A DNA stretch of 44,797 nucleotides from Myxococcales bacterium (GTDB lineage Bacteria; Myxococcota_A; Polyangia; Polyangiales; JAFGIB01), in assembly GCA_028817905.1 (NCBI GenBank), contig JAPPOR010000816.1:1-44797 (forward strand). The letters are read 5' to 3'. The notes under the pieces are model-generated. The model was not told the DNA's origin. It was given only the letters and a program-made list of their open reading frames with translations, and did no database searches. A program made the translations under genes and the position numbers. This document shows, piece by piece, positions 31,888 to 44,782 of this stretch (its first letter is position 1; each line of letters starts with the position of its first letter).

Positions 31888-34800
31888 GTGAGCCGGACAT
31901 GGGCAACGCGCGCGTTATTCACATGGGCAGCGTCGACCCTAGGACTGCTCCTGTTGTCTGCCGCTTCCGCGCGCGCAGACACGGTCGTCGCGATCGTGTC
32001 GGAAGCGTCGGCGCCGGAGTTCGCGGCCGCCGCGCAGGCGTTTGCGGCCCGTCGAACCTCGCACCGCCTGGTGTTCCGGTCGACGTCGCAGGTCGCACGC
32101 ATGGGCGATGCTGAGCTCCAAGCCCTGCTTGCGGCCGCGGACGTACTCGTGTTGGCCGCCGTGTTCGGCGAAGAAGCGGCTCGGCTGCGGCCGCTCCTAC
32201 ACGGGATACGTGCCCGCACGATCTTGCCGCTGCACGGAGACACGGGCTTCATGCGCCACGCCCGCATCGATGGGCGAGCGGCGTTCACCGGAGCGCCGCC
32301 CGACGAGGCCGCCCGGCGCCTGCGCGAACTGGCTGGCAAACCGCCTGCGTTCGCGGCTCCGACGGGGGAGCCGTCTCCCGAGCAACTCTTGGCCCAGGCG
32401 CGCCGCTACCGCGACGGGCGCGGCGTCAGCAACATGGTCGCCCTTCTTCGCTTCGTCCTCGCACAACCCGAGGGGCGTCCATCCGTACCGCCTCCCCGGT
32501 CGGGAACGGCATTGCGCTATCTCGACGCGAACGGTCAACCCCAGCAGACGCCCTCGACAACGGGTCCCGCCGTGGTGATCGTGGACTACGACTCGGGAGA
32601 CGGGGAAGGCGACACAGGCGTGCGAAGCGCCCTGTGCCGTGCACTGTCGGGGCGGGGGCTCACCTGTCTGTCTGTGCTTTCACGGTGGGGCAAGGCCAGC
32701 ATCGAGGCACTTCGCGCGCTCCTCGCAGCGCAGCGCTCGAAGGCGCTTTCCATCCGGGCGATCGTGATGCTGCAAGACTTCGTGATCGGCGGTGGCGCTG
32801 GAGCCGAAGAGGCCGCGGGGCTCCTGCGCGGCCTGGACGTCCCGGTGCTCAAGGCGGTGCGCATGGCCGACCGCAGCACCGGCGCCTGGAGCGTGAGCGA
32901 AGACGGTCTACCGGACGACAGCGTGCACTACCGCCTTGCCATGCCCGAGCTGCAGGGGGTCTCCCAACCATTCGTGGTTGCGGCTGCCGGGCCCACGCGC
33001 GTCGAACCGACGTGCGGGCTGGAGGTATCGCCGCCGGTCGCCATCATGCCCGAGGTCCAGGCCATGGCGTCACGGATCGCACGGCTATCCGCACTGCGCA
33101 CCAAGTCGAATGCGGACAAGCGCGTCGCCATCATCTACTACAATCACCCCCCCGGCCGGCACAACATCGGCGCCGACAACCTGGACGTGCCGGAATCGCT
33201 TCTTTCGATCCTCGCGCACCTGCGCGCCGCTGGCTACGACACAGGGGAACTGCCGGCGAGTGCCGCCAGTCTGCTCGGCAAGCTGCAGGCGCGTGGCGTA
33301 AACCTACCGCAGGATGATGAAGCGTTGCAGGCCATGGCCGGGCGCGTGGCCCGCGTCGCACCTGCCGACTACGGGGGCTACTTCGCACGTCTGCCCTCGC
33401 AGGCCCAGGCAAGCGTGCGCGACGGCCCGCTGTCGGCCTTGCGCCTGGCGGCCGAGCAGGCAATCAAGACGGGCGAGCGTGAGCTGGCATCCGAACGGGT
33501 CGAGCGCGTGCTTGCGGACGTTCGCCACCTGCTAGAAGGCGTGATCCACCCGGCACGCGAGCACGCCCTGTCGACGCTCGATCGCTTGGCGGATCGGTAC
33601 GGCGCATGGCTCGACGGACAGCCAGAAGCAAACGCCAAGGTCACGCGCCTGAGTTCGCAGCTCGCTGGGTTCGGCATCGAAGGGCTTGGCGGCTGGGGAC
33701 CCCCGCCGGGCCGCATCATGACCCACGCAGGCGAACTCGTGATCCCGGGACTGTCCTTTGGCAAGGTCTTTATCGGACCGCAACCCCCTCGGGGCTGGGA
33801 GCTAAACGAGGAACTCCTGCACGCCAACCTGGCGTTTCCGCCTCCGCACCAGTACCTGGCGTTCTATGAATACCTCCGCCACGTGTGGCGCGCCGACGTC
33901 TTGATCCACGTGGGTCGCCACTCGACCTACGAGTTCCTGCCGGGCCGGCGCGCGGGGGTCGGGGTCGATGACTTCTCCCGGATCGTGCTGGGTGACCTTC
34001 CCAGTGTGTACCTCTACATCGTGGACGGCGTCGGTGAAGGCATACAGGCCAAGCGTCGCGGGCAGGCGATCATCATCGACCACCTGACACCTTCCCTGAG
34101 CACGACCCCGCTCTACGATGACCTACTGTCGCTGCGGCAACTGGTCGAGAGCTACGAGGCGGGTGCCGGCATCAAGGGGCACGCAGGAGCCCGAGCGCTG
34201 TCGGAGATTCGAGACACGATCGAGCGCCTCAACATGCGTGACGAGCTAGAGGCGAGCATGCGCCCCGAGCTGCAGGCGCGGGGCATCGGCTTTGACCAGG
34301 CGGATGGCGAGCTGCTGGTGCACGAGGTCGGTCACTATCTGACCAAGCTCCAGGAACGCTTCATGCCCCATGGTCTGCATGTATTCGGGCAGCCGTGGAG
34401 CCCGGAGGCGATCGAACGCATGGTCCGGTCGATGGCCGGGGACCGAAAGCCAGACGCCTCCTGGCGCAAGGCGCTGCTCACGTCACCGCAACGGGAAGCA
34501 CAGGCGCTGCTATCGGCCCTGGAAGGACGCTTCGTTCCACCCGGCCCGGGTAACGATCCCGTACGCACGCCCGAAGTGCTTCCCACCGGCCGCAGCTTTC
34601 ACGCCCTCGATGCGAGCGTTCTTCCCACCAAGCTGGGGTACAAGTTGGGCGCAGAACTCGCAGCCCGCGCCCGCAAGGACGCTCCGGGTACGAGCGCGGG
34701 TGCCGAGGCGGTCGTGCTGTGGGCGTCCGACACCGTGCGCGATGAGGGCGCCATGGTCGGCTTCGGAATGGACATGCTGGGGATCGCACCACGCTGGAAC

Positions 34801-36186
34801 AGCCGGGGCATCGTTCAGGGGCTAAAGCGGCTCCCGCTGGTGGGCGGCCGCGTACGGCGCGATACGACCTTCATCGCCTCCGGGCTTTTTCGGGACCTGT
34901 ACCCACCGCTGTGCGACTACCTGGATCGGGCTGTTCTGCTGGCCATCGACGGCAGTTCGCAGCACATCGCATCCCACCATCCCGAACTGCGTGACGCCCT
35001 GGAAGCCACCATGGCCCCGCTCGGCGATGCCCGAGCCCCCGGAAACGAGGGGCCTTCGCACAACCAGGTGGCCGCGCACTGGGTACAAACCACCAAGGAG
35101 CTGCTCGCTCGCGGCACCCCGCCAGAGACTGCAGGACGCCTGGCGGCCGCACGCGTATTTGGCGACGCACCGGGCACCTACGGAGCCGGCATCAACCGCC
35201 TGGCCGAGCGGTCCGGCGCCTGGCAGGCGCGCAGCGAACTGGTGAAGACCTATGTGCGCCGCGTGGGTCATGCCTACGGGGGCGGCCGATCCGGCGCGCC
35301 GGCGCATGCGGTGTTGCGAGCCATGCTGGCACGCACGGAACACACGTACCTCGGCCGCGCCAGCAACCTGTACGGCATCCTGGACAACAACGACGTGTTC
35401 GACTACCTGGGTGGCCTCGGCATGGCCGTTGAACAGGCGCGTGGGACCCCACCCAAGGCCCACGTCGTCCAACATGCCGATCCCAAAGCCACCAGGGTTG
35501 AGCCCCTACCGAGCGCGTTGCTCCAGGAGCTGCGCGGGCGCCACCTGAACCCCACCTATCTGAAGGGCCTGATGGCCCACGGATACGCGGGCGCGCGAAC
35601 CATGGGTAGCGGCTTCGTGGAAAACCTGTGGGGCTGGCAAATCACCAGCCCGCACATCGTCCGTAGCTGGGTCTGGGACGAAGTCAAAGCCGTGTACCTG
35701 GATGATAAGTACGCCATCGGGGTTTCGAAGTTCCTTGCGCAGGACGACAACGTCCACGTTCGCACCAACGTACAGGCGATCCTGCTCGTGGCCGCCCACA
35801 AGGGATTCTGGCAGGCCGACGAGTCCGCCCTACGCGCCCTATCGGAGTCCTTCGCCCGGGCCGTCGTCGAACACGGGCTGCCGGGCAGCGGACACACCCG
35901 ACCGGACCATCCGATGCTCGCCGACGTTCTTCGGCGCCTGCCCGATGAGCTCGCACAAGCCCTGAGGGCGCGTCTCGACGCTGCCCTCGGTCGCAGCGCG
36001 CGCGCGCTGGTCAGCGAACTCGAGCACGCGCACCCTGCGAACCGACAGGGCGAGCAAGCGGATGCGGAGCCGACCTCGGCGCCCGCGGCCGCTACGGCCC
36101 TATGGCCCAGGGGCATGACCGTGGCGCTGGCGGCCCTCGGGCTCGTGGGCCTCGGGTTCGTACTGGAGCGTCGAAAGAGGATGTGA
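31888..36186 (+). CDS. CobN/HmuS-family chelatase, exported and membrane-anchored
   Basis: GTG at 31888 with GGAG 8 nt upstream; 1432 residues. Residues 1-30 form a signal peptide (LLLLSAASARADT). The body is the CobN/BchH fold: PGRHNIGADNLDVPESL, GWGPPPGRIM, YEYLRHVWRADVLIHVGRHSTYEFLPGR (676-687 correspond to the usual GTHGTLEFLPGK), DLPSVYLYIVDGVGEGIQAKRRGQAIIIDHLTP and YGAGINRLAERSGAW. Residues about 1406-1426 form a C-terminal helix followed by RRKRM, placing the protein outside the inner membrane. Canonical CobN is a cytosolic cobaltochelatase subunit working with CobS and CobT, which are absent here. The exported form matches the HmuS type of Bacteroidota, implicated in haem processing. 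B12 regulation suggests corrinoid as substrate here. Confidence 0.85.
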   Translation: MSRTWATRALFTWAASTLGLLLLSAASARADTVVAIVSEASAPEFAAAAQAFAARRTSHRLVFRSTSQVARMGDAELQALLAAADVLVLAAVFGEEAARLRPLLHGIRARTILPLHGDTGFMRHARIDGRAAFTGAPPDEAARRLRELAGKPPAFAAPTGEPSPEQLLAQARRYRDGRGVSNMVALLRFVLAQPEGRPSVPPPRSGTALRYLDANGQPQQTPSTTGPAVVIVDYDSGDGEGDTGVRSALCRALSGRGLTCLSVLSRWGKASIEALRALLAAQRSKALSIRAIVMLQDFVIGGGAGAEEAAGLLRGLDVPVLKAVRMADRSTGAWSVSEDGLPDDSVHYRLAMPELQGVSQPFVVAAAGPTRVEPTCGLEVSPPVAIMPEVQAMASRIARLSALRTKSNADKRVAIIYYNHPPGRHNIGADNLDVPESLLSILAHLRAAGYDTGELPASAASLLGKLQARGVNLPQDDEALQAMAGRVARVAPADYGGYFARLPSQAQASVRDGPLSALRLAAEQAIKTGERELASERVERVLADVRHLLEGVIHPAREHALSTLDRLADRYGAWLDGQPEANAKVTRLSSQLAGFGIEGLGGWGPPPGRIMTHAGELVIPGLSFGKVFIGPQPPRGWELNEELLHANLAFPPPHQYLAFYEYLRHVWRADVLIHVGRHSTYEFLPGRRAGVGVDDFSRIVLGDLPSVYLYIVDGVGEGIQAKRRGQAIIIDHLTPSLSTTPLYDDLLSLRQLVESYEAGAGIKGHAGARALSEIRDTIERLNMRDELEASMRPELQARGIGFDQADGELLVHEVGHYLTKLQERFMPHGLHVFGQPWSPEAIERMVRSMAGDRKPDASWRKALLTSPQREAQALLSALEGRFVPPGPGNDPVRTPEVLPTGRSFHALDASVLPTKLGYKLGAELAARARKDAPGTSAGAEAVVLWASDTVRDEGAMVGFGMDMLGIAPRWNSRGIVQGLKRLPLVGGRVRRDTTFIASGLFRDLYPPLCDYLDRAVLLAIDGSSQHIASHHPELRDALEATMAPLGDARAPGNEGPSHNQVAAHWVQTTKELLARGTPPETAGRLAAARVFGDAPGTYGAGINRLAERSGAWQARSELVKTYVRRVGHAYGGGRSGAPAHAVLRAMLARTEHTYLGRASNLYGILDNNDVFDYLGGLGMAVEQARGTPPKAHVVQHADPKATRVEPLPSALLQELRGRHLNPTYLKGLMAHGYAGARTMGSGFVENLWGWQITSPHIVRSWVWDEVKAVYLDDKYAIGVSKFLAQDDNVHVRTNVQAILLVAAHKGFWQADESALRALSESFARAVVEHGLPGSGHTRPDHPMLADVLRRLPDELAQALRARLDAALGRSARALVSELEHAHPANRQGEQADAEPTSAPAAATALWPRGMTVALAALGLVGLGFVLERRKRM

Positions 36187-36677
36187 TGGAAGGATTGCTA
36201 TCGTCAGCGTCATGGCTTCGGATGGTGTCCGAGGCACTGGAAGCGCCCACCCACGTGCTCCTGCTCGCAAGCGCGGCGCTTGGACTGCTCGAAGTGGGCG
36301 TGTATCTGCACGAACGGATGGGCAGTGCGCTTCGTCAGCTGGCACCCAGGGTGCTCCTTGACCATGGCCGGACCCGCATCGATCGGGCGGACCTTCTGGC
36401 ACGGGCCGGACCCATGCTCGGACTGATGGGGACCCTGATTCCCCTTGGGCCGGGCCTGTCCGCGCTGGGTCGCGGGGATGTCGCGACACTCGCCGCGGCA
36501 GTGACGGTGGCTTTCGACACCACGGTGTTGGGACTCGCGGTCGGCATCGTGGGGTTCGTGCTGGGGCGCGCGCGCCGTCGGCTCTATGACCGCCTGCTAG
36601 ACGCACAAGAGCCAGCGGTACGCGCCGACTCCGAGCCGGAGCCCGCGCTGGAGGTGGCCCGTGCGGCGGTGGAATAG
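36186..36677 (+). CDS. MotA/TolQ/ExbB-like proton channel protein
   Basis: The ATG overlaps the CobN-like stop (TGATG). The 163-residue product has three predicted membrane helices: about 23-44, and then the ExbB-type pair with GPMLGLMGTLIPLGPGLSAL (the GLLGTV...G motif) and AVTVAFDTTVLGLAVGIVGFVLG, where small residues and Thr line the proton path in the family. It is shorter than ExbB (about 240). With the next gene it should form a proton-motive-force-driven motor in the inner membrane, as TolQR/ExbBD do. In the hmu-type loci of Bacteroidota an equivalent protein accompanies HmuS. Confidence 0.8.
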   Translation: MEGLLSSASWLRMVSEALEAPTHVLLLASAALGLLEVGVYLHERMGSALRQLAPRVLLDHGRTRIDRADLLARAGPMLGLMGTLIPLGPGLSALGRGDVATLAAAVTVAFDTTVLGLAVGIVGFVLGRARRRLYDRLLDAQEPAVRADSEPEPALEVARAAVE

Positions 36678-36978
36678 CCGTTTCGATGAAGGCACCGAGG
36701 GCGACCCGATGGCCGCGATGGCCACCCTTGTCGACGTCATGTTGGTGTTCGCCTGTGGGTTGATGGCGGCCCTCGTGATGGGCCAGCTGAAGGAGCCGCA
36801 GCACGAAGGAAGCGGCGAGGAGGTACAGAAGGCGCGCGTTCTTTCACAGCCGCCACGCGGCATGGGAGACGTGGGAGGCGGCTTCCACCCGGTGGGCCGC
36901 GTGTTTCGAGATCCGGACAGCGGCAAGCTCATCCTGGTGGAGTCTCCCGGCGGCGCCTCCTCCGACGCTTCGCCATGA
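36661..36978 (+). CDS. DUF2149 / ExbD-like protein
   Basis: GTG start at 36661, overlapping the preceding gene by 17 nt. The 105-residue product has a short cytosolic start (VRRWNSRFDEGTEGDPM). A single membrane helix LVDVMLVFACGLMAALVM follows, whose Asp25 lies in the same place as the essential membrane Asp of ExbD/TolR (LIDVMLVLLIIFM). The rest is a periplasmic tail with GDVGGGFHPVGRVFRDPDSGKL. DUF2149 proteins are found next to CobN-like genes. I infer that it is the rotor/stator partner of the ExbB-like protein and touches the exported chelatase. Confidence 0.8.
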   Translation: MRRWNSRFDEGTEGDPMAAMATLVDVMLVFACGLMAALVMGQLKEPQHEGSGEEVQKARVLSQPPRGMGDVGGGFHPVGRVFRDPDSGKLILVESPGGASSDASP

Positions 36979-38291
36979 TCCGCTGCCTGACCACGATTGT
37001 CCGCGTGGTGCTGGTCGTGGCCGCGGCCCTGCTCACAACGCGCCCCGTGCTTGCCCAGGACCACGAGCTCGTGCGCACCGATGGGTTTGTCGCGCGGCGA
37101 AAGGGGGTAGCGCTTATCGTGGACCTGTTGACCCCACACAGGGTCCTCACCACCTCCACGGTTGGACCCGGGCTCGGGCACCGGCTGCGCCATATCGTTA
37201 ACATTCAAAGCATGGAAGCCCGTGGTCATGAGCGGAGATTGCAGGCTCGTCTGACGGTTGGCCGAGCACGTCATCACGAAATGACCGCCGGGCATCTCGG
37301 ACTGCCACCCGAAGCCACGGCCTTGATGGGCACAGCCGCGCATCAAGGCCACCTGGGTCATGCCTCGGGCACCTTCCGGGAGCTACGGGTCGACGCCTTC
37401 GCAACGGCTGGGGTGCACGGCAATGCAGTAAGCGCAGGGGATCCCGCGAGCTACCACCAGACCGGCAATGGCGCCCGCAAGGTCGCCGCCGATGGCACCA
37501 TCAATGTCATCTTGATCATCAACCAGCCCGTCGCGCCTGGCGCCGTGGTCAAGGCCGCAACCGTCGCCGTAGAAGCCAAGGTAGCCGCGCTCATGTCACT
37601 CGCGGTGCCCAGCACGAAGTCTTCCGAACTTGCGACAGGTACGGGGACGGACCAGCTCACGATCGCGGTGCGCCTTCCATCCAAACAGGGTCCGCCCAAG
37701 CCGAACTCGCCCAAGCCCCGTTCACCAACGTCGCGGCCGGCAACGCGGACTGCCGGCCGGGTCCTAGAGAGCGCAAGCCAGCACCTCAAGCTCGGCCAAC
37801 TGATCGGCGAAACCGTCCGCGACGCCGTGCGGGACGCCATCGAGCGACAGAACGGGCTTGCGCCAGGCGCGACCCGCAGCCTGTGCTACGCGCTGAAGCG
37901 CTTCGGACTCACGGAGTCGCGCCTGCGGGCCCGTCTGGCGCGCCATCTGAGCAGCGAGGCCCTACAGCTGTTGCTCGCCAACCTGTCAGCGATCGAGCGC
38001 GAGCCGCGCGTGGCCGCCGCTGGATTTGCCTTCGCCGCGATCCTCGACCGCGAGCAATATGGAACCATCGATCGCTTGTCGGCCCAAAGCGTTCTGCGTG
38101 ACCAGGCTGCGACCCTGGCGGTGGCTGTCGCCCAGCGCCCGGACCGCTACGCGGGCTTCTGGAAGCAGCTGAGCGGGCCCTACCAGGACCGCACCGACCT
38201 GGCGATCCACGCTCTGGCGATCGGCTTTGCGGCCAAGTGGCGCGACGACGTCGAAACTGTGGTGAGGAGAACGCACCCATGGCACCCCTGA
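36975..38291 (+). CDS. exported CbiZ-family protein with C-terminal helical domain
   Basis: ATG overlaps the previous stop (ATGA). The 438-residue product begins with a signal peptide (VVLVVAAALLTTRPVLAQ). Residues about 30-235 match the CbiZ core, almost motif for motif with the cytosolic CbiZ at 24773: ATAGVHGNAVSAGDPAS, GTINVILIINQPVAPGAVVKA, VAVEAKVAAL and ATGTGTDQLTIAV. A Pro/Lys-rich linker (about 236-258) then leads to a helical domain of about 180 residues with no family I recognise. CbiZ hydrolyses the amide bond holding the nucleotide loop in cobinamides; an exported form would cut corrinoids before uptake. Whether it is active is untested. Confidence 0.78.
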   Translation: MIRCLTTIVRVVLVVAAALLTTRPVLAQDHELVRTDGFVARRKGVALIVDLLTPHRVLTTSTVGPGLGHRLRHIVNIQSMEARGHERRLQARLTVGRARHHEMTAGHLGLPPEATALMGTAAHQGHLGHASGTFRELRVDAFATAGVHGNAVSAGDPASYHQTGNGARKVAADGTINVILIINQPVAPGAVVKAATVAVEAKVAALMSLAVPSTKSSELATGTGTDQLTIAVRLPSKQGPPKPNSPKPRSPTSRPATRTAGRVLESASQHLKLGQLIGETVRDAVRDAIERQNGLAPGATRSLCYALKRFGLTESRLRARLARHLSSEALQLLLANLSAIEREPRVAAAGFAFAAILDREQYGTIDRLSAQSVLRDQAATLAVAVAQRPDRYAGFWKQLSGPYQDRTDLAIHALAIGFAAKWRDDVETVVRRTHPWHP

Positions 38292-40802: not shown

Positions 40803-42419
40803 TCAGGCGACGTCAGTCAGCCGGTGGCGTCCCCCTACCGGACCGATCCCGGAGGTGTGCCGCGGACCGGCATCGGAATCGCGCCCGGTTTCTCCCAGGA
40901 AGTACCCTGTCGTGAGTGTCAGCATCTCGCGCCAAGCACCGCGGATCGTTTCCCGTCGAACCGGGTCTTCGCACAGCGGGTCGAAGCGCTCGTCGCCGTC
41001 ACATACTGTGGCGATGAGCGTATCGGAAAACACCTTGTAATGCTCGAGCCCAATTTTCCTATCCGCGTGCCTGCGGGCGTGCTCCCTGAGTTGTCGGTTG
41101 CCCGCGCGATCGATCCCAGAAACCGGAGAAAGCACGTAATCGAAGCAGGCGTCGATTGCGCGGCGAAGCTGTTCTTCTTGCTTGGGCCAATCCTTGCGTT
41201 CGAAATGCCCGAAGAAACGCCTAATCAAGTCGTGCGCCGCGAACCGTTGATAGAAGACCGTGAAAAACGCCGGCGTACGCGCCGCTTCGAGGCAGCGCGC
41301 GTAGCTGTCACGCGCGGTCCACAACGTTTCGCGCTCGACGTAGCGGATCCTGTCGATGGCCTTGCCCAGTGAATGGAAGCGAGCACCCGAATCAAGCCGC
41401 GTCATCTTCTCCAAGGCTTCGCCGATCTGCCGCGGGATGAGCTGTCGTTCGTGAAGGGGAGGTAGCGGTTGATAGGCCGCACGGCCGCGTTCCCGCAGGG
41501 CCGTACGGGTCTCCTCTACAGCAAGCTCGCCCGGGGCACCGCGAAGCCCAGGTAGAATCGCAGGCAGCTCGCCGGTCAGCAACTCAATGGCCATCATGCC
41601 AAGGGCGTACTGGTCGCATTTCTCAGGACTGACCACGCCGCCGGAACCAGTCAGTAGTTCGGGTGCCGTATAGACGAGGTCCTCCTCCGTCAGATGGCCA
41701 TCGCGTAGGGCGTCCTGGAGCTGAGCTCGGTCCAGGAACGTCAAACGCGTGCGAGGACTGACAAGCGGGCGGCCATCAGCACCGCGCAGGATATTGCTGG
41801 GCTTGAGGTGCCCCAGCTGGACTCCCTGACTGTGCGCGACTTCGGCCGCTTCGCTCACCCGGCACAGGACCTCCCGCACGGTGGACCACGCGACCGGGCG
41901 AGCTTCGCGTTCGATGTACTCGCGAAGGCTTCCGTTCTGCGCGTACTGCATCAGGAAGTGTGGCCGGTCACCGGCGGCCTGCGCTGTGTAGACCGTGACG
42001 AAGTGGGTCTCGTTGCCGAGCTTCGCTACGCCCCGCATGGCCTCGACGAACTCCTGCTTTCGCTTCGGATCGGTCAGTTCCTTCTTGACCACCTTGCGGT
42101 TGAGCACTGGGTCGTGCCCAACCCACGTGGTTGAAATCGGGCTGCTCGAGGGAAGCTCCTCAAAGCCCTGCGGGACGACCAGCCGCCGTCCCAGCAACCA
42201 CCACATGGTCGCGAACGCGAGTAGCACTGCCGCCACGACGGCCAACCCGCATAGTGCCTCGAAGAGGTCGCCTTTCAGCAGTGGTACGACCCCGATCACG
42301 ATGAGTACTGTCAGGACGCCGCCCACCACCAGCACCCGGTCCCGCTCCGGCGTCTCCGCGATAATCCTGAGCAGGCTCCGCTCGAAAACCTGCTCTGTCC
42401 CCCCCGAGTCGCTTGGCAT
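40803..42419 (-). CDS. membrane pseudokinase fused to a globin-like domain
   Basis: ATG at 42419 with GGGAGGGG 7 nt upstream; 538 residues. Two membrane helices (about 28-47 and 53-78) are followed by a kinase-like domain (about 90-360). The Gly-rich loop is degenerate, the Lys row is VVKKEL (111-113), the catalytic loop reads LGHLKPSN (His204 in place of the catalytic Asp), the DFG motif is not recognisable (LTFLDRA), but YTAPELL is kept. It is therefore probably a pseudokinase. Residues about 372-507 look like a globin: FFTVFYQRF, DWPKQEEQLRRAIDACFDYV, LREHARRHADRKIGLEHYKVF (candidate proximal His451) and RGAWREMLTLTTGYF. It might sense O2, NO or haem and signal through the kinase-like domain. 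Confidence 0.7.
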   Translation of the reverse strand: MPSDSGGTEQVFERSLLRIIAETPERDRVLVVGGVLTVLIVIGVVPLLKGDLFEALCGLAVVAAVLLAFATMWWLLGRRLVVPQGFEELPSSSPISTTWVGHDPVLNRKVVKKELTDPKRKQEFVEAMRGVAKLGNETHFVTVYTAQAAGDRPHFLMQYAQNGSLREYIEREARPVAWSTVREVLCRVSEAAEVAHSQGVQLGHLKPSNILRGADGRPLVSPRTRLTFLDRAQLQDALRDGHLTEEDLVYTAPELLTGSGGVVSPEKCDQYALGMMAIELLTGELPAILPGLRGAPGELAVEETRTALRERGRAAYQPLPPLHERQLIPRQIGEALEKMTRLDSGARFHSLGKAIDRIRYVERETLWTARDSYARCLEAARTPAFFTVFYQRFAAHDLIRRFFGHFERKDWPKQEEQLRRAIDACFDYVLSPVSGIDRAGNRQLREHARRHADRKIGLEHYKVFSDTLIATVCDGDERFDPLCEDPVRRETIRGAWREMLTLTTGYFLGETGRDSDAGPRHTSGIGPVGGRHRLTDVA

Positions 42420-42654: not shown

Positions 42655-43674
42655 ATGGACGCGAAGCTCCTCATCGACGGAATCGTTCAGCAGACGACGA
42701 TTCTGCTGGCCCAGGTCTCGACAGCCGCCGGGGTCCGCGCACCTCTCGCCCACGTAGCCGATCAGGTGTTCATCGAACTGGCCCGGGAAATCGAGGCCCA
42801 GGGCGTCAGGCGCAAGGTGGCCGCCGACATGTTTGGCCTGGCGCTGAGGACCTATCAGAAGCGGGTCCAGCGGCTGACGGGGGGGCCCCCGTCCCGCCAC
42901 CGTACGTTGTGGGAAGCGGTCTACGAGTTTCTGTCGCACAAGCAGCGCGTGACACGCGCGGAGGTCAACCAGCGCTTTCGATATGAGCCGGCCGAGCACG
43001 TGGGGGCCGTCCTATCGGATCTGGTGCAGCAGGGAATGGCGTTTGCGACTGGCCACGGGCAGGCAACGGTGTACCGGATCGTTGAGTCGGAGGACCGTGC
43101 AGCGCTGCTTGCCGACGGGACCGATGACGCGTTGACCGACATGGTCTGGTTGCATGTCTATCGGCATGGCCCGCTGCGCCGCTCCGAGTTGGAGTCTGCG
43201 TTCACGGTCGGCGAGCGACGCTTGACCGCGGCCGTCGACGTGCTGTCGCAACGGGGTCGCTTGCGCGCCCAGCTGGAGCGCGACCCGATCCTGGCCGCAG
43301 ACACCTTCGAGGTGCAGGTTGGAGACAAGCAGGGCTGGGAGGCGGCGGTGTTCGATCACTTCAGCACGGTTGCCACAGCGCTGGCGAGCAAGCTGCGCAT
43401 CGGCCCGCGGTCCAGTCACAACGACCGCGTTGGGGGAAGTACGCACAGCTTCGATGTGTATGCGGGACACCCCATGGAGGATGAGGTCTACGACCTGCTG
43501 CGTACGGTTCGGCAGCAGGTGGATGCCCTGTGGGAACGCGTCAGCCGCCACAACCGCGCGCATCCCGTTCACGATGATCGCAAAGTCAAGGTTTCGTTCT
43601 ATTTTGGTCAAACAGTATCCGATGCGGCCGAGGATGCCGCGGGACGAGGTGGGGAGCATGACACGCAAGAGTGA
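42655..43674 (+). CDS. winged-helix-like cytosolic protein, unknown function
   Basis: ATG at 42655; 339 residues, no signal or membrane helix. An N-terminal helix-turn-helix-like stretch (RRKVAADMFGLALRTYQKRVQRL) and two further winged-helix-like parts (WEAVYEFLSHKQRVTRAEVNQRFRY and MVWLHVYRHGPLRRSELESAF) suggest DNA binding. A C-terminal helical part of about 110 residues may be a coiled coil. I do not recognise the family. It overlaps the following lipoprotein gene by 17 nt, so the two are probably co-translated. Divergent from the pseudokinase-globin gene. Confidence 0.65.
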   Translation: MDAKLLIDGIVQQTTILLAQVSTAAGVRAPLAHVADQVFIELAREIEAQGVRRKVAADMFGLALRTYQKRVQRLTGGPPSRHRTLWEAVYEFLSHKQRVTRAEVNQRFRYEPAEHVGAVLSDLVQQGMAFATGHGQATVYRIVESEDRAALLADGTDDALTDMVWLHVYRHGPLRRSELESAFTVGERRLTAAVDVLSQRGRLRAQLERDPILAADTFEVQVGDKQGWEAAVFDHFSTVATALASKLRIGPRSSHNDRVGGSTHSFDVYAGHPMEDEVYDLLRTVRQQVDALWERVSRHNRAHPVHDDRKVKVSFYFGQTVSDAAEDAAGRGGEHDTQE

Positions 43675-44782
43675 AGGACAACTGACGGAGTTCGATCGGG
43701 TGAGCCGACAGGTGCTTGCACTGTCAGGTGTGATCACGGCGCTGCTTGTCGGCTGCGGGTTCACCACCCGACCACAGACGGACAGTCGGTCGAACTGGCT
43801 GCGGGCATGCGACGAGGATGCTGACTGCAGTAGCGAGCTAGCATGCGTATGCGGCGCATGCACCCAAGCTTGCGACCTGGAAACCGAGTGCGTAGGCGAG
43901 GGCATGGAGCTTTCGTGCCTGCGACCGGAGGATTTCGAAGGGCTCGGTGCGTGTGCATCGATGGAGTCGAGCCCAGTCCCCTCGGCCTGCCTACTTCCCT
44001 GCAGATCCGCCAGCGACTGTGGGGACGGGCTAGTGTGTGAGGGCGGGATCTGCATCGCGGAACCGGAACCAGCGGCGCCTCCGATTGCGGTTGGCGGCCC
44101 CGATGCGGGGCCGCAGGATCGGGAGGAACCCGGCACTGTGCCCGAGGTTGCCGCCTCGGACCAGGCGACTGCGGCTTCGGTCTCCGAGGAAGTGTCCGGA
44201 CAAGCGCCGAACAGTCCTCTTGGCGAAGAGTTTTCCGCGTGGTTGGGGGAATGGCCTCCGCAGCCACCGCCGCTACCCGGCGAGCCCGAGCTGCGGATCG
44301 ATGGCGAGCCGATCCCGTTCTTCCCCCCGGGCCTCTTCGACGAGGAAACGGGTCGGGCCCTGGCGGACTTCGATCCCTACCCGTACCAATTCGCGTGTCT
44401 GCTCGATGTCGACCCTGGCCGTGGGGGCCCTGTGCGCGTGTACTACGCCCATGCGCCGGGCACTATGGTGGAAGGTTTGCCCGCAGCTGACTGCCTGGAG
44501 GTGTGCCGCGGACCATATGACCTCCAGGGAACCATGGTTTCTAATGGCGCCTGTCCGGCTGCCTCCAGACCACGCTGCGCGACGACCAACGTCACGCGCT
44601 TTGTCAGCGGTGACGTCACCCGCGAGGCGTCGTTCACCTTCACCCCCAACGCGATCCTTCTGCACGTAAGCGTACATGGAGAGGGGAGCGAAGACCTTGA
44701 CTACACAACGAGAATTCCACTTGGAGCGTGTGTGGGGGACCTGCAGGCCATGCGGGACTGGATCGCCGCGAGCGACCCTTAG
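43658..44782 (+). CDS. Cys-rich secreted lipoprotein, unknown function
   Basis: The ATG at 43658 has a GGTGGGGAG ribosome site and is the last start that keeps the lipoprotein signal (ALSGVITALLVGC, Cys about 34). The 374-residue product has a Cys-rich N-terminal part (CDEDADCSSELACVCGACTQACD, then SDCGDGLVCEGGICI) in the style of small EGF/Dickkopf-like cysteine repeats seen in myxobacterial lipoproteins. A Pro/Glu-rich linker with PPQPPPLPGEP follows, then a C-terminal region with CLLDVDPGRGGPVRVYY and paired Cys that I do not recognise. It is probably displayed on the outer membrane. Function unknown. Confidence 0.75.
   Translation: MTRKSEGQLTEFDRVSRQVLALSGVITALLVGCGFTTRPQTDSRSNWLRACDEDADCSSELACVCGACTQACDLETECVGEGMELSCLRPEDFEGLGACASMESSPVPSACLLPCRSASDCGDGLVCEGGICIAEPEPAAPPIAVGGPDAGPQDREEPGTVPEVAASDQATAASVSEEVSGQAPNSPLGEEFSAWLGEWPPQPPPLPGEPELRIDGEPIPFFPPGLFDEETGRALADFDPYPYQFACLLDVDPGRGGPVRVYYAHAPGTMVEGLPAADCLEVCRGPYDLQGTMVSNGACPAASRPRCATTNVTRFVSGDVTREASFTFTPNAILLHVSVHGEGSEDLDYTTRIPLGACVGDLQAMRDWIAASDP

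Follow-up and report, generated by a model that had tools for sequence, protein, structure and literature searches.

What kind of protein arises when a membrane-bound kinase fold with lost catalytic motifs is joined to a globin, and what might such a protein do? The question is raised by an open reading frame at positions 40803–42419 of the window, by which we mean the whole 44,797-nucleotide stretch analysed here (contig JAPPOR010000816.1 of a Myxococcales bacterium, assembly GCA_028817905.1). Located on the minus strand, the frame comprises 538 codons from an ATG start and encodes, in order, a transmembrane hairpin, a kinase-like domain with the features of a pseudokinase and a globin, as assigned by ORF analysis and Pfam. 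The frame is open, and the GC content at its three codon positions (0.70/0.46/0.75) is coding-like and sustained from end to end. A preliminary description of the locus had proposed a membrane pseudokinase fused to a C-terminal globin-like domain, and both domains are indeed found in the one frame with scores above the curated Pfam cut-offs.

The N-terminal part of the protein contains two helices that are hydrophobic by hydropathy analysis (residues ~29–48 and ~52–76; 42192–42335, minus strand), for which the AF2 model gives borders at 26–48 and 52–80. This is the sole region of the protein with a pLDDT of about 80, in a single-sequence model with a mean pLDDT of 41. An arginine- and lysine-rich N-terminus precedes the first helix, a polar turn (LKGD) connects the two, and the second is followed by GRR. 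The short turn and the basic flanks suggest a hairpin with both of its ends in the cytoplasm. The membrane part named in the preliminary description is present, and takes the form of a hairpin of two hydrophobic helices.

The kinase-like domain spans residues ~90–360 (41340–42152, minus strand), as delimited by a Pfam Pkinase match (residues 108–286, E = 2.8e-14, 53.6 bits) and an alignment with 12 related kinases. In this alignment LPSSSPISTT stands where the other kinases have their glycine-rich loop, and the alphaC glutamate is lost. The HRD motif reads L202-G203-H204 (41808–41816, minus strand), which places His204 at the position of the catalytic aspartate within the segment QLGHLKPSN (201–209), and the DFG motif is substituted by P222-R223-T224 (41748–41756, minus strand). 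The beta3 lysine (Lys113), Lys206 and Asn209 of the catalytic loop, the APE motif (252–254) and the alphaF aspartate (Asp269) are all kept. The alignment thus bears out the replaced aspartate, the missing DFG and the retained APE that had been picked out beforehand. A frameshift or assembly error behind the lost motifs can be ruled out, as the frame is open and neither HRD nor DFG is present in the other reading frames of the ORF. The two aspartates that mark a catalytically active Hanks kinase, those of HRD and DFG, are both absent, and the combination of a kinase-fold match with lost catalytic motifs is that of a pseudokinase; judged from its sequence, the domain is catalytically dead.

Other matches to the kinase part add little to its identity. 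Those to NCBIfam kinase models reflect the kinase fold only, and the same is true of the PADLOC defence kinases PD-T4-6 and mad6 (at most 58.5 bits); no defence context was seen at the locus. Beyond the phylum, relatives were sampled in two ways: a scan of genome contigs returned two weak, kinase-only matches, and in a plasmid collection the kinase part was matched in part, with no place covering 80% among the matches listed.

The globin domain occupies residues 364–510 (40890–41330, minus strand), leaving 28 residues after it, and was defined by Pfam, a shuffle control, a tree and alignment of the haem pocket. A profile search, as proposed in the preliminary description, matched Pfam Globin (PF00042) over residues 388–471 with 26.4 bits against a gathering score of 22. 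Two independent HMMs were built from other globins of the phylum with the window protein left out. The protein scored 27.5 bits with the model of globins in general and 45.3 bits with that of its own subfamily (13 sequences), whereas 2,000 shuffled versions of the domain reached maxima of only 4.8 and 7.1 bits, respectively. The assignment as a globin is thereby upheld.

The haem pocket can be followed residue by residue. Y390, F403, Q414 and H451 occupy positions that we take, from the general structure of globins, to be B10, CD1, E7 and F8. When seven diverse globins from the phylum are aligned, these four columns are invariant; the window globin shares only 18–27% identity with these, and 18–30% with the other globins compared, yet all four residues are kept. 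The histidine at F8 and the phenylalanine at CD1 are moreover invariant in all 13 subfamily relatives, and the candidate proximal histidine can be placed at H451 (41067–41069, minus strand), aligned with that F8 histidine. The HxxxIGxxHYxxF pattern noted earlier holds in its IGxxHY core, but the spacing is H-x4-I-G-x2-H-Y (HADRKIGLEHY) and not H-x3-IG. Relative to its subfamily the domain carries insertions in its loops, some 3, 5 and 9 residues long. A single-sequence AF2 model of the domain has seven helices, with a mean pLDDT of 46 that is too poor for use, and the closest solved structure in a sequence search of the PDB is 3wfw, HGbRL of Methylacidiphilum (E = 0.04). Overall, the globin retains, by sequence, a complete F-type, flavohaemoglobin-like haem pocket. 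The protein is nevertheless not a flavohaemoglobin, as Pfam identifies no FAD/NAD reductase module within it; no such reductase gene was seen by eye adjoining the ORF.

Is the joining of a globin to a kinase exceptional? It had been described beforehand as rare, which does not hold in the phylum of the host. One representative genome per species was searched with PF00042, and the long frames were then read and scanned for kinases. This gave 17 further kinase–globin proteins with no fewer than four architectures, spread over 16 of the 377 genomes, one of them the host genome, a count that may miss divergent fusions since the first pass with PF00042 missed the window's own globin; a subfamily search was added to lessen this effect. 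Like the window protein, all 17 carry a Hanks kinase and a PF00042 globin in one chain. A kinase–globin–abhydrolase arrangement is assigned by Pfam to L074, L076, L077, L082 and L086, and L085 is grouped with them on account of a globin nearly identical to that of L086. L096 (480 aa) is a shorter kinase–globin relative of this type, and resembles the window protein in domain order and approximate length but is without a membrane part. In L070, L075 and L078 the kinase and globin are followed by a large C-terminal part that looks cyclic-nucleotide-binding-like. A kinase–LRR–globin order is found by Pfam in L069 (from the host genome) and L072, and by eye in L071. Finally, L091, L093 and L094 have a ferredoxin/cyclase-like region between kinase and globin, and L087 is placed with them by its shared globin clade. 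Where a ferredoxin, cyclase or cyclic-nucleotide-binding part is named, it was recognised by eye in the sequence, without a profile match. HRD and DFG are kept in all 17, and their kinases look active. Those inspected by eye have no obvious N-terminal membrane hairpin, unlike the window protein. The combination with a dead kinase was found nowhere else in this search, with no other case among the 377 genomes of the phylum and none in the six other genomes of the same family. No report of kinase–globin fusions was found in the open-access papers searched. Among the other globins of the phylum, a protein of 566 aa (L073) joins a globin to cytochrome P450-like sequence, as read by eye from an FGIGKHYCPGA motif.

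The phylogenetic position of the globin bears on the origin of the fusion. A maximum-likelihood tree built from 52 globins places the window globin inside a clade of 14 rows with support of 97/96, and the 13 other members (L137–L149) are short ORFs with no kinase domain. The kinase-fused globins of the phylum all lie outside this clade, which sets the window protein apart from them in descent. The branch to the window globin is long (1.62), and its exact position within the clade is for this reason unsure. As the globin groups with proteins that lack kinase domains, the tree indicates that the fusion arose in an event separate from those behind the active kinase–globin proteins of the phylum, probably through the union of a decayed Ser/Thr kinase with a globin that had been a separate protein and belonged to a minor subfamily. 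A search of the phylum genomes for globins of this subfamily revealed no second kinase fusion, and the six other genomes of the family contain no orthologue of the N-terminal part or of the whole protein. A kinase gene stands beside one of the 13 separate subfamily globins (L138:4060-5449), where the globin gene and a kinase-like gene diverge with ~22 bp between the ORFs; the kinase-like gene has HQD, and its DFG has become QFG, with loss of the aspartate. This could be an unfused globin–pseudokinase pair, a suggestive but single case.

We found no conserved gene neighbour that points to a partner of the window protein. The gene upstream (42655–43674, plus strand) diverges from the ORF and encodes an uncharacterised HTH-like protein, whose family has 13 matches in the host genome and 3–11 in each of six genomes of the same family, while a further 49 genomes of the order gave no match. 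It was rejected as a dedicated partner because the family is paralogous and the upstream genes differ between copies. Copies of this gene are usually followed by a cysteine-rich lipoprotein with an SNWL..C / C.CG.C signature (here the frame 43319–44782, plus strand), and the two form a family-restricted cassette. On its other side the ORF converges with genes for a CobN-like protein (31888–36186), ExbB-like, DUF2149-like and CbiS-like proteins, a nitrilase and a PepSY protein. The cluster at 31888–38291 (plus strand) contains in a row a CobN/magnesium-chelatase-like protein, which has a membrane anchor at its C-terminus, and the ExbB-, DUF2149- and CbiS-like proteins, and looks like a system for the uptake and remodelling of corrinoids (or another metal-tetrapyrrole). 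Given the tail-to-tail arrangement, it is likely to be transcribed separately from the ORF. No match to a sigma-70-type promoter was found around the ORF, which carries little weight in such a genome.

The reading that we favour, with belief and doubt in about equal measure, is that the protein is a membrane-anchored haem sensor in which the pseudokinase relays the ligand state allosterically to a partner. The hairpin would tether the protein to the membrane, with the kinase-like and globin domains in the cytoplasm. The globin would bind haem and a gas ligand, for which the tyrosine at B10 and glutamine at E7 make O2 or NO the likeliest candidates. Binding of the ligand would move the CE loop and E helix and so shift the pseudokinase between conformations. 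In HGbRL, which links a globin to a Roadblock/LC7 domain, the CE loop and helix E have been described as moving with the ligand, and a relay to the neighbouring domain was proposed (PMC4476040). Presumably unable to transfer phosphate and probably unable to bind Mg-ATP, the pseudokinase would serve as an allosteric scaffold acting on a membrane partner. A bacterial precedent for a non-catalytic role is the transmembrane pseudokinase EssB/YukC, which has degraded catalytic motifs and glycine loop and recruits a secretion apparatus (PMC12599244). The partner might plausibly be one of the more than 150 Hanks-type Ser/Thr kinases of the host genome, in which 155 kinase matches were found. We also raise, more tentatively, a wider proposal: the pseudokinase could be haem-gated, in a membrane receptor that senses O2 or NO inside the cell and governs active Ser/Thr kinases through allostery alone. 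It would then stand at one extreme of an apparently unreported set of globin-regulated Hanks kinases that has evolved repeatedly in this phylum.

Three other explanations have to be set against a sensor. The globin may be an enzyme or O2 carrier, acting as an NO dioxygenase or O2 reservoir, with no sensing involved and the pseudokinase serving merely to dock it at the membrane or on a partner. A pocket with tyrosine at B10, glutamine at E7 and histidine at F8 is common to the flavohaemoglobin and Vitreoscilla haemoglobin types, and the closest relatives of the window globin are separate proteins without a kinase domain. The pocket of HGbI offers an example (PMC4476040). A reductase domain is, however, missing from the protein and none was seen beside the gene, and the recurrent fusion of globins to kinases in the phylum favours a signalling role, so that we regard this explanation as unlikely. 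Still less probable, in our estimation, is a weak or atypical enzyme, in which the kinase-like domain binds nucleotide or catalyses another transfer. The kinase-like protein SelO catalyses another kind of transfer, and the retention of Lys113, Lys206 and Asn209 would suit such a function. For the pseudokinase SidJ, polyglutamylation is documented (PMC6858067). Here, on the other hand, the metal-binding and catalytic aspartates are both gone, and with them the glycine loop and the alphaC glutamate.

The gene could also be in decay, a chance fusion of kinase and globin that is functionless and on its way to loss. It is a singleton even among genomes of the same family, its globin sits on a long branch, and its Pkinase score of 53.6 bits compares with scores from 193.5 down to ~89 bits, nearly all above 100, among the kinase matches listed for the host genome. 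Against decay stand the 538 intact codons with coding-like codon positions and the retention of all four haem-pocket residues in so divergent a globin, and we give this explanation a low probability. The membrane-anchored haem sensor remains our working model, and the signalling role within it is favoured by the repeated fusion of globins to kinases.

Haem-based gas sensing is well known to act through histidine kinases, cyclases and chemoreceptors; for Hanks Ser/Thr kinases we found no report of such coupling in the open-access papers searched. Globin–kinase coupling has apparently evolved at least five times in this phylum, in one instance with a kinase that is dead by sequence. The active-looking kinases that carry LRR, ferredoxin/cyclase-like or abhydrolase parts, together with the one pseudokinase, form a directly testable set in which to study the control of a kinase fold by a globin. 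Among membrane proteins with a kinase fold and degraded catalytic motifs, the window protein resembles EssB/YukC and MviN; neither of these has a globin, and the word globin is absent from the survey that describes them (PMC12599244). Like the globin-coupled sensors HemAT, GsGCS and HGbRL, it links a globin to another domain with a signalling or partner role. In the sensors, however, the globin is N-terminal (PMC4476040), whereas here it is C-terminal, matches PF00042 and not the protoglobin/sensor model, and is partnered by a pseudokinase with a membrane hairpin. The protein is thus not a globin-coupled sensor of the classical type, and its predicted architecture would place it among globin-coupled signalling proteins as a variant with a dead kinase.
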